Shown: positions 2,839 to 28,690 of the stretch, in pieces
Numbering within the stretch: the stretch's first letter is position 1
Layout of the letters: each line of letters opens with the position of its first letter
NCBI GenBank assembly: GCA_937951645.1
Contig: CALFBM010000096.1
Location: 1 to 53,904 of the forward strand
Direction: 5' to 3'
Source of the DNA: an uncultured Rhizobiaceae group bacterium
Lineage (GTDB): Bacteria; Pseudomonadota; Alphaproteobacteria; Rhizobiales; Rhizobiaceae
Length of the DNA: 53,904 nt
Translations under genes and position numbers: made by a program
Notes under the pieces: generated by a model
What the model was told of the DNA's origin: nothing
The model's database searches: none
What the model saw: only the letters and a program-made list of their open reading frames with translations

Positions 2839-4341
2839 ATGGCTCTTTCAGTTCATTTACAACAAAAGCAATCGCAATCGCTTGTGATGACGCCTCAATT
2901 GGCGCAATCAATAAAGCTATTACAATATAGCCATCTTGAACTCTCGGAATTCATTCAGGGCGAAGTTGAAAAAAACCCTCTACTTGAACTTGGTTCTGAT
3001 ACCAGTATTTCTGCAGACGAAGTAGCAGACGCCAGTAGCGAGAACAAAGAAAATACAATCTCCAATGAAATGAAGCTTGATGCTGGTGAAAAGGCAAATG
3101 ATCTGGATGCTTCCTTTGAAAATGTCTATGATGAAGGTATTGCAGGTGCTGAAAAAGCAAATTCACAACCTTCATCTGCATCAATTTCCATATCTTCACA
3201 AGGTTCATCTTCCAACAGTAAAGACGATACTGACTTTCTGGCAAGTGTGGGAGAAACCGTTAGTTTAACCCAGTATTTAAACAGTCAGATTTGCCTGGCT
3301 TTTGGTGACAAAAAAGACCGCGAAATTGCAACTTATATCGCCCATGGTCTTACAGACGATGGGTATTATCAGGAAGATTTGCATGATCTTGCAATGCAGA
3401 CGGGTGTCAGTTTAAACCGTGTTGAAGATGTTTTGAAGGAATTTCAAACCCTCGAACCGGTGGGAATTGGTGCGCGTGATTTAAAAGAATGTCTTGGTAT
3501 TCAGTTAATCGAAAAGAACCGCTTTGATCCTGCAATGGTAATGCTTTTGGATAATTTGCCACTTTTGGCAAAACGTGAGTTTGAAAAACTTATGAAACTT
3601 TGCAGTGTTACCCGTGAAGATTTCAATGACATGATCCGCGAAATAAAGGAGCTTGATCCTAGGCCTGCTGCAAAATACGAACCCGTTTTGGCTCAAAATA
3701 TCGTGGCGGATGTGATTATTCGTCAGAAAACTGATGGCAGCTGGCTAATTGATCTTAATCCTGAAACTCTTCCAAAAGTTCTGATTAATTACGCTTATCA
3801 TAGCGAACTAACTTCAGCTGTTAAAACGCCTGATGGCAAAGAATTCATTGCCGAATCTATGGCTAACGCAAGCTGGCTAACAAAAAGCCTCGATCAACGC
3901 GCGCAAACCATTCTTAAAGTTGCTACTGAAATTGTTAAACAACAGGATATGTTCTTTGCGGAAGGTGTCGAGCATTTAAGGCCACTAAATCTCAAAACGG
4001 TAGCTAACGCGATTAAAATGCATGAATCAACCATTAGTCGTGTAACTTCAAACAAGTTCCTGATGTGTGATCAGGGTATCTTTGAGCTTAAATATTTTTT
4101 CTCATCCTCCATTACCTCCAGTGAGAGCGATGAAGGACATGCTTCCCAAAGTGTGAAGCATAAAATAAAGCAATTAGTGGATTTGGAAAACCCTGGAAAA
4201 GTGCTTTCAGATGATCAAATCGTAATGCAGCTTCAGGAAACAGGTATTGAAATAGCGCGGCGTACTGTTGCCAAATATCGTGAAGCAATGCGCATCCCTT
4301 CATCCGTACAACGTCGTCGTGAAAAGAAACAACAAGCCTGA
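2839..4341 (+). CDS. rpoN: RNA polymerase sigma-54 factor
   Basis: N-terminal 'QSQSLVMTPQLAQSIKLLQ', C-terminal RpoN box 'ARRTVAKYREAMRIPSS'. Confidence 0.96.
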   Translation: MALSVHLQQKQSQSLVMTPQLAQSIKLLQYSHLELSEFIQGEVEKNPLLELGSDTSISADEVADASSENKENTISNEMKLDAGEKANDLDASFENVYDEGIAGAEKANSQPSSASISISSQGSSSNSKDDTDFLASVGETVSLTQYLNSQICLAFGDKKDREIATYIAHGLTDDGYYQEDLHDLAMQTGVSLNRVEDVLKEFQTLEPVGIGARDLKECLGIQLIEKNRFDPAMVMLLDNLPLLAKREFEKLMKLCSVTREDFNDMIREIKELDPRPAAKYEPVLAQNIVADVIIRQKTDGSWLIDLNPETLPKVLINYAYHSELTSAVKTPDGKEFIAESMANASWLTKSLDQRAQTILKVATEIVKQQDMFFAEGVEHLRPLNLKTVANAIKMHESTISRVTSNKFLMCDQGIFELKYFFSSSITSSESDEGHASQSVKHKIKQLVDLENPGKVLSDDQIVMQLQETGIEIARRTVAKYREAMRIPSSVQRRREKKQQA

Positions 4342-26425: not shown

Positions 26426-27205
26426 TTATGTATGCATTCTTACTGGAATTCCAGCCGCTTGCATATGGGCTTTGGCTTCGCCAATCGTATAAGTGCCAAA
26501 GTGAAAAATTGAAGCTGCTAAAACTGCACTTGCGCCTCCCTTGGTAACGCCTTCAACCAAATGATCCAAATTACCAACACCACCAGAAGCAATCACAGGA
26601 ACATGCACGGCATCTGCAATCGCACGGGTAAGTGGCAGATTATAACCCACTTGTGTTCCATCACGATCCATTGAAGTAAGCAGAATTTCACCAGCCCCTT
26701 TTGAAACAACCAATTGTGCAAATTCTATCGCATCAATACCGGTTTCCCTACGGCCGCCATGGGTGAAAATTTCCCAGCGATCTTCCTCGCCTTTGCTTGA
26801 GACTTTTTTCGCATCAATCGCCACGACGATGCATTGATCTCCAAACTTGTCTGAGGCTTCTGCTACAAAATCAGGATTTTTAACGGCAGTTGTATTAATC
26901 GAAACCTTGTCGGCGCCTGCTAAAAGAAGCTTTCGAATATCAGCTACTTCACGCACACCACCGCCAACTGTTAGTGGCATGAAACATTGTTCAGCTGTAC
27001 GCGCAATCATGTCAAAGGTAGCTGAACGCCCTTCAGAAGTTGCAGTAATATCCAGAAACGTAAGCTCATCCGCACCTGCCGCATCATAAGCAATTGCAGC
27101 CTGCACAGGATCTCCAGCATCAACCAAATCAACAAAATTCACACCCTTAACAACGCGGCCACAAGCTACGTCCAGGCAGGGGATTATTCGGACTTTCAGG
27201 GTCAT
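26426..27205 (-). CDS. hisF: Imidazole glycerol phosphate synthase cyclase subunit HisF
   Basis: '[29 protein letters not shown]'; full TIM barrel. Confidence 0.98.
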
Positions 27206-27933
27206 AATTGCAAAACTTTCAATGCTTCACCGGCATCCAGCCGTCCATCATAAAGTGCACGTCCTGTGATTGCGCCTTCAAGTTTTTTGCATTCTGGTGA
27301 GGCCAGTTTTTTTACGTCCTCGATGGAAGCCAATCCGCCTGATGCAATGACGGGAATGGAAACTGCGTCTGCCAGTTTGATTGTGGACGGCCAGTTTATG
27401 CCTGTAAGAATTCCGTCACGGTCTATGTCTGTATAAATAATCGCTGAAGCGCCTGCGCCTTCAAATTCTTGGGCAAGCTCTACAATGCCCAGTTCAGAGG
27501 CTTCTGCCCAGCCTTCAACAGCAACCTTGCCACCCTTGGCATCAATTCCAACCGCAATTTTACCAGAGAATTTTTTACAGGCCTGTTTTACCAATTCGGG
27601 GTCGCGTACTGCAATAGTTCCCAAAATTACCCGAGCAATGCCCTTGTCCAGCCAATGGGAAATATGATCAAGCGTTCTGATACCACCGCCCAATTGAACC
27701 GGATTTTTGGTATTGGCCAAAATTGCTTCAACTGCCTTGCCGTTTACGGTCTCACCTTCAAAGGCACCGTTAAGATCAACAACATGTAACCATTTGAAAC
27801 CCTCGTCTTCAAACGCCTTTGCTTGTGCGCCCGGGTCTTCATTATAAACGGTTGACTCATTCATATCACCAAGTTTAAGACGAACGCACTCGCCGTCTTT
27901 AAGATCAATAGCCGGGAACAATATTTTAGTCAT
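27202..27933 (-). CDS. hisA: Phosphoribosylformimino-5-aminoimidazole carboxamide ribotide isomerase HisA
   Basis: '[31 protein letters not shown]'; start placed at ATG 27933. Confidence 0.96.
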
Positions 27934-28037
27934 AGGCGAATGCTCTTTTTTATTTGTGTGTCCTCGAAGCTGCGCTTCTGCGGGCAACACGGGCTACCAT
28001 CTTTGAGATCTATGGCCGGGAAAAGAACTTTTAACAT
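27930..28037 (-). CDS. 35-aa ORF carrying a second, diverged HisA N-terminus ([35 protein letters not shown]); leader peptide or pseudogene remnant
   Basis: Start overlaps hisH stop (TGATG), stop overlaps hisA start (ATGA); 12/14 aa identity to HisA residues 1-14. Confidence 0.65.
27956..27990. repeat. Imperfect palindrome GTGTTGCCCGCAGAAGC-GCA-GCTTCGAGGACACAC inside the hisH-hisA insertion
   Basis: Core GAAGC/GCTTC and outer GTGT/ACAC arms visible; central part imperfect. Confidence 0.5.
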
Positions 28038-28690
28038 CAAGGTGCCCATTTCAAGAAATTACTGATTAAAGCCAAGCCCAGGCGTTGGCTTTTTTCCGGG
28101 TGAAATTGTGTACCAACCATGTTGTCTCGACCTGTGATTGCAGTCACAGCACCCCCATAGTTGGTTGTTGCAATGCACTCATCTGTATTGACGCATTCCA
28201 TGTGATATGAGTGTACAAAGTAAGCGTGCAATCCACCTTCACCTGTTTCAATACCTTCCAATAATGGATGTGGTTTTTGAACCTGAAGTGTATTCCAGCC
28301 AATTTGCGGAATTTTTAAATTCTTGTCTTTTGGTTGTAGTTGCACAACATCACCGGCAATCCAGCCAAGACCGTTGGTTGTTGCTTTTTCAAGCCCGCGA
28401 GATGCCATAAGTTGCATCCCGACGCAAATACCCAAAAAGGGCTTTGCCTGCTTGATGACAGCATCTTCCAATACTTCAACCATGCCTGAAACTGCATCCA
28501 GACCTGCGCGACAATCGGCATAGGCACCCACACCCGGTAAAACAATGCGATCTGCTTTGGATACCCAATCTGCATCACTTGTAAGTCTGATATCAGCAGA
28601 AATATCCGCTTCGCGGCTGGCTCGTTCAAATGCCTTTTGTGCGGAACGCAGGTTTCCGGAGCCATAATCTATAATTGCAATTTGCATCAT
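28037..28690 (-). CDS. hisH: Imidazole glycerol phosphate synthase glutamine amidotransferase HisH
   Basis: '[18 protein letters not shown]', '[12 protein letters not shown]', '[14 protein letters not shown]'. Confidence 0.97.

Follow-up and report, generated by a model that had tools for sequence, protein, structure and literature searches.

A short structured unit at the hisH-hisA junction of a Rhizobiaceae bacterium: a probable site-specific insertion element that restores the gene end it disrupts

Introduction

A displaced native gene end, a restored end carried by the incoming DNA, limits that coincide with gene boundaries and repeated insertion at the same site are hallmarks of site-specific integrative elements. 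In integron attC sites, group II introns, IS110 elements with their bridge RNA and IS200/IS605 elements with their guides, the site of insertion is selected by a folded single strand or by a guide that base-pairs with it. Here we describe a unit of about 104 bp at the junction of hisH and hisA in an uncultured Rhizobiaceae bacterium, on the minus strand of contig CALFBM010000096.1. The whole contig (53,904 bp) was analysed and is referred to as the window; the hisH-hisA site is internal, away from the contig ends. The unit is probably a tiny, non-autonomous, site-specific insertion element that repairs the gene end into which it inserts.

Among short alphaproteobacterial repeats, the CGTC palindromic repeats have stems of 8-9 bp, loops of 4-5 nt and mostly CCA tails (PMC3733652), and Rickettsia palindromic elements (RPE) sit in frame inside proteins (PMC3733652). 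The open-access literature searched held no earlier description of the family to which the hisH-hisA unit belongs, surveys of repetitive extragenic palindromic (REP) sequences being the only relevant reports, and the family appears to be undescribed.

Results

An insert between hisH and hisA is shared by several relatives

An earlier note on this locus had reported a second, diverged copy of the hisA start within a 35-codon open reading frame (ORF) that couples hisH to hisA. Its description was reproduced in full. On the minus strand, the hisH stop TGA overlaps the ATG at 28037 (TGATG), the stop of the ORF (28037-27930) overlaps the hisA ATG, and the two copies are identical at 12/14 amino acids and 30/42 nucleotides, with six synonymous codon differences. 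We compared the hisH-hisA junctions of relatives (G, C and L numbers are our labels for genomes, contigs and loci). Within the genus, hisA follows hisH directly, with no insert, in two genomes (G001 and G011); in four others (G004, G005, G006 and G010) the hisA start is duplicated upstream and the same 40-nt sequence comes next, and a G+C-rich version occupies the junction in another genus, Zhengella (G031). Because these last five genomes carry a homologous structure at the same place, the insert is not an assembly artefact, and it is not confined to one decaying strain, which were the two outcomes that the earlier note had said would overturn its observation. The insert is common to several relatives and patchy in its occurrence. 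In the draft genome G004, two contigs (C242 and C57) each hold a hisA gene with the unit, which could reflect a strain mixture. At the end of contig C136 of G005 (locus L152, near position 3484) a copy of the hisA start stands in inverted orientation, which is probably an effect of the assembly ending there.

The 40-nt tail is a covarying structure found at many genes

The 40-nt part of the unit, which we call the tail, consists of two short stems with a triloop and contains the near-invariant motifs GCCCGCA and GAGGAC. In an alignment of 36 distinct sequences, 98.1% of cells were paired, and 66 cells were changed on both sides, compared with 19.6 in shuffled alignments (0/500 shuffles were as good). 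Pairing dropped to 16-43% in slid controls. A second subtype, without the bulge, is 95.6% paired. The tail in the window matches the model at positions 27953-27992 with an E-value of 6e-12, the window sequence itself being among those used to build the model. Its outer stem has C-G pairs replaced by U-A at two places, and its single-sequence fold agrees with the family structure but is not significant by itself. Rfam covariance models gave no match at E<=1 for the six loci tested, including that of the window, so that membership in any group II intron, riboswitch or ribozyme family of Rfam was rejected.

The sequence that follows the displaced copy (copy A) served as a search pattern, which matched in 38 of 398 genomes of the host's family. 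Over 85,462 species genomes the same pattern found 75 stretches, mostly in Rhizobiales, with some chance matches besides. Carrier genomes, which belong to Rhizobiales and a few other Alphaproteobacteria, have 1-5 copies of the tail each; a plasmid search gave two weak matches. Every true match with readable context adjoins a conserved gene or tRNA, and part of the gene end is almost always copied across the tail. The protein-coding targets, named by recognising their translated ends with no family search behind the names, are the 5' ends of hisA, hisF, glyS and cimA and, in reverse orientation, the 3' ends of mmsA, ilvC and sdhB; the tRNA targets are the 3' ends of tRNA-Ile and tRNA-Gln and the 5' end of tRNA-fMet. 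Units are about 100-150 bp long overall. The copied block measures about 10-50 bp (at tRNA-fMet it can be merely ~10-20 nt) and mostly begins at a start codon, a stop codon or a tRNA CCA end, and the tail always has the gene body on the same side. Chance is excluded, since the 40-nt tail, which is not itself duplicated, is found again with covarying structure beside many other genes. Ordinary tandem slippage is also an inadequate account, as the earlier note had judged for a recent tandem slip.

A genome-wide search of the host found the tail only twice, at hisA and at glyS. The second unit (G000:C77:11618-11657, minus strand, locus L153) lies at the glyS start and has its own tail, with a covarying outer stem GCAT/ATGC. 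Units beside tRNA-Ile or tRNA-fMet at L106, L110, L129, L131 and L245 are apparently in ribosomal RNA operon spacers; L111 and L245 show two tails ~47 bp apart with no gene copy between them. At L246 (G634, around 1100) a tail lies within an apparent Rhs/YD-repeat gene. A related core hairpin (GCCCGCAG..CGAGGAC) without the outer stem was seen in other Alphaproteobacteria at L249 (G684) and L247 (G813/G891), with two copies 184 bp apart at L249.

Each unit carries a short stretch complementary to its target

Between the tail and the rebuilt gene end, units carry a stretch of 8-11 nt that is complementary to the target at the insertion point. Among 16 representatives covering about ten genes, the match of this stretch averaged 8.8 at its own site versus 5.1 at other sites, and none of 5000 permutations reached the observed own-site sum. 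At hisA, stretch and target vary together (GCATTCGCC/GGCGAATGC, GCACTGGCC/GGCCAGTGC and GCATTGGCC/GGCCAATGC). At cimA there are two insertion positions, and the stretch differs between them; each stretch matches the position where it lies, the second one weakly. Independent elements can be stacked at one site, and in tandem arrays a good match is mostly confined to the last unit, the one in contact with the real gene flank. At L151 (G287:C91, 2600-2830) two different elements are stacked in hisF; their tails and complementary stretches differ, and both stretches match the same site. At the sdhB end of Ahrensia marina (L087/L034) three units stand in a row, the middle one differing from the outer two in hairpin and spacer.

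The displaced copy has the native sequence

The unit is polymorphic, with empty sites in close relatives. About 20 of 120 Mesorhizobium genomes carry it at glyS, and in a tree of Mesorhizobium glyS gene bodies the element-free strains are interspersed with carriers. At this site the displaced copy A has the codons of the element-free strains (up to 45/45 nt identical); the rebuilt start A' encodes the same amino acids with a different codon set. Of the origins that the earlier note had offered, insertion of an element into the original hisA start followed by regeneration of the start came closest and holds in outline, as two relatives of the same genus lack the insert and the inserted part is a repeated element. 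Its proposal of a remnant of a divergent hisA allele was right in that the two copies differ in history, but it is the functional A' that the element would have brought and the remnant A that is native. Between many Mesorhizobium strains, identity is 94-99% over tail and spacer and 85-94% over the gene body, a pattern compatible with horizontal spread as well as with constraint. The features of the hisH-hisA junction are listed in Table 1.

Table 1. Features at the hisH-hisA junction, in window positions
Feature	Position	Strand	Basis or remark
hisH	28037..28690	-	Stop overlaps start of displaced copy A (TGATG)
Copy A, displaced native hisA start, 14 codons	27996..28037	-	Position behind hisH unchanged; junctions in relatives; equivalent Mesorhizobium glyS copy equals element-free starts
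35-codon ORF: copy A and tail read through; coupled upstream ORF	27930..28037	-	Stop overlaps hisA ATG at 27933-27931
Structured tail, 40 nt: outer stem GTG(U)UG/CACAC, inner stem and triloop, GCCCGCAG...CGAGGAC...CAAA	27953..27992	-	Model match, family covariation, fold
Target-complementary stretch GCATTCGCC, 9 nt	27935..27943	-	Pairs with GGCGAGTGC over 9 bp, one G.U
Copy A', rebuilt functional hisA start	27892..27933	-	ATG at 27933, overlaps stop of the ORF with copy A (ATGA)
Target junction GGCGAGTGC	27886..27894	-	Paired by complementary stretch GCATTCGCC
hisA, intact	27202..27933	-	Gene reading and comparison with relatives

The displaced start remains coupled to the rebuilt gene

In 67 of 68 units at 5' ends, the ORF beginning with copy A is open and its stop lies within -3 to +10 nt of the A' start, the usual junctions being ATGA, TTGA and TGATG; these records are related by descent and some are redundant, and the single exception contains a run of N. 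The coupling of hisH, the short ORF and hisA that the earlier note had described is thus real and general. This overlap, which would keep the downstream gene coupled, is best read as keeping the 5' target expressed. Such an arrangement could instead belong to a conserved regulatory leader, in which the ORF with its hairpin couples or regulates the gene and the peptide is under selection. Codon differences between A and A' are mostly synonymous at 5' targets (glyS 91:7), unlike those at the 3' ends of mmsA (16:22) and ilvC (14:22), where A, being untranslated, decays without synonymous bias; and among 18 Mesorhizobium glyS carriers the ratio of nonsynonymous to synonymous polymorphism (pN/pS) was lowest in A (0.02), followed by A' (0.05) and the gene body (0.13). 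However, because A equals the element-free native starts, its low pN/pS suggests that it was the working gene start until recently or still is; the ratio therefore neither proves nor disproves selection on a peptide. Moreover, the peptides would be the N-termini of four unrelated proteins, the frame of the tail differs between hisA/hisF and glyS, the unit is missing in close relatives and A decays in several hisF and hisA cases. The unit also occurs at tRNAs and at the 3' ends of genes, where a leader would have no gene to precede, so that membership among leader peptides and attenuators, which lie only upstream of a regulated gene, was rejected, and the selected leader peptide that the earlier note had suggested fails as a general explanation. 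We consider a regulatory leader unlikely, and one dedicated to hisA inadequate.

Discussion

Altogether, these results argue for an insertion element that restores its target. We propose that the element would have entered hisA after codon 14, giving the order native A, structured 40-nt tail, short spacer with the complementary stretch and element-borne A', whose 14 codons restore hisA. The displaced A would be translated behind hisH, in an ORF that continues across the tail and terminates at the new hisA ATG, and hisA would then be expressed by termination-reinitiation. The unit may move as DNA or as RNA, the folded strand or its RNA being moved by an enzyme that acts in trans and recognises the tail, and the complementary stretch may help to choose or engage the target. 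A more speculative extension, which we regard as possible without favouring it, is that such units form a new class of minimal mobile DNA, composed of a structured scaffold of ~100 nt, a short target-complementary guide and a recoded gene-end patch. Insertion into essential genes would then be harmless, the enzyme would act on the folded strand or RNA, and units would be retargeted by changing guide and patch together.

Several points weigh against an insertion element. No movement was observed, and among the units examined there was no autonomous or longer version, ~104-136 bp leaving no room for an integrase ORF. In 33 of the 40 genomes, most carriers included, there was no Y1 transposase, by which REP sequences mobilised by REP-associated tyrosine transposases (RAYT) were also rejected; IS110 recombinase and reverse transcriptase were missing from several well-assembled carriers, e.g. 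G250. Mobilisation by a Y1 transposase, reverse transcriptase or IS110 linked to the units was dismissed for lack of association among carriers, a result compatible with supply in trans from elsewhere. The A' copies of Mesorhizobium have a rate of divergence close to that of the gene body, a poor fit to a very recent sweep. Finally, units at the same site are related across genera, so that some of the pattern is accounted for by vertical inheritance and loss.

An inverted stretch beside a direct repeat is typical of template switching, and here the inverted stretch does adjoin a direct repeat. A snap-back switch during replication could thus have made the copy and the inverted stretch, with the tail copied along. 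Yet the conserved, covarying tail is common to unrelated genes, the copied block mostly stops at gene boundaries and the Mesorhizobium A' was not copied from the local A, which makes this origin quite improbable. We give still less credence to the idea that A remains in use, the segment from tail to A' being skipped by translational bypass, RNA splicing or frequent precise excision so that A and A' give the same protein. The junction sequence is repeated on both sides with a structured RNA between, and A shows a purifying pattern only with the element in sense orientation; against this, A' alone suffices, no Rfam splicing family matches, and in hisF the codon of A adjoining the tail is often changed. 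Homologous recombination that simply left behind a piece of a divergent hisA allele would suit the mainly synonymous differences between A and A' but is highly improbable and not adequate alone, since it leaves the tail, the complementary stretch and the same layout at other genes and tRNAs unexplained and is contradicted by the family-wide recurrence.

If the unit is indeed an insertion element that rebuilds its target, it would be among the smallest known elements repairing the gene they break, and its complementary stretch suggests that insertion is guided, yet by none of the known guide systems. In Rhizobiales, it would also account for the odd short ORFs and repeated start regions that precede hisA, hisF, glyS and cimA, at which start-site annotation can easily choose the displaced copy. 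Polymorphic, low-copy sites in cultured Mesorhizobium make movement directly testable.

Among guide- or fold-directed systems, the unit differs from attC sites, group II introns, IS110 and IS200/IS605 elements in having no Rfam match and no linked recombinase, reverse transcriptase or transposase found, no search for an integron integrase having been made. Miniature inverted-repeat transposable elements (MITEs) are likewise small and non-autonomous, but the unit lacks both constant inverted repeats at its termini and a short duplication of the target. Its inverted stretch varies with the target and its copied block of about 10-50 bp usually ends at gene boundaries, so that membership was rejected. 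Like REP and CGTC repeats, the units are short alphaproteobacterial hairpins, and the CGTC type also lacks a known dedicated transposase (PMC3733652). They differ in that two short stems and a triloop make up their structure and that the gene end is rebuilt; the GTAG/CGTC tag, the single palindrome of 8-9 bp, the CCA tail and the many copies of those repeats were not found, and because the core is present at only 1-4 copies per genome the unit is not a dispersed REP. With islands and prophages of tyrosine recombinases it shares a displaced end and an element-borne restored end, a copy limited by the gene boundary, tandem arrays and sites in conserved genes and tRNAs; it departs from them in its size of about 100-150 bp, with no cargo and no encoded or linked integrase, in using one tail for all targets and in its target-complementary stretch. 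As with RPE, a short element enters reading frames and stays translatable; here, however, the protein is rebuilt and the element is left outside it.
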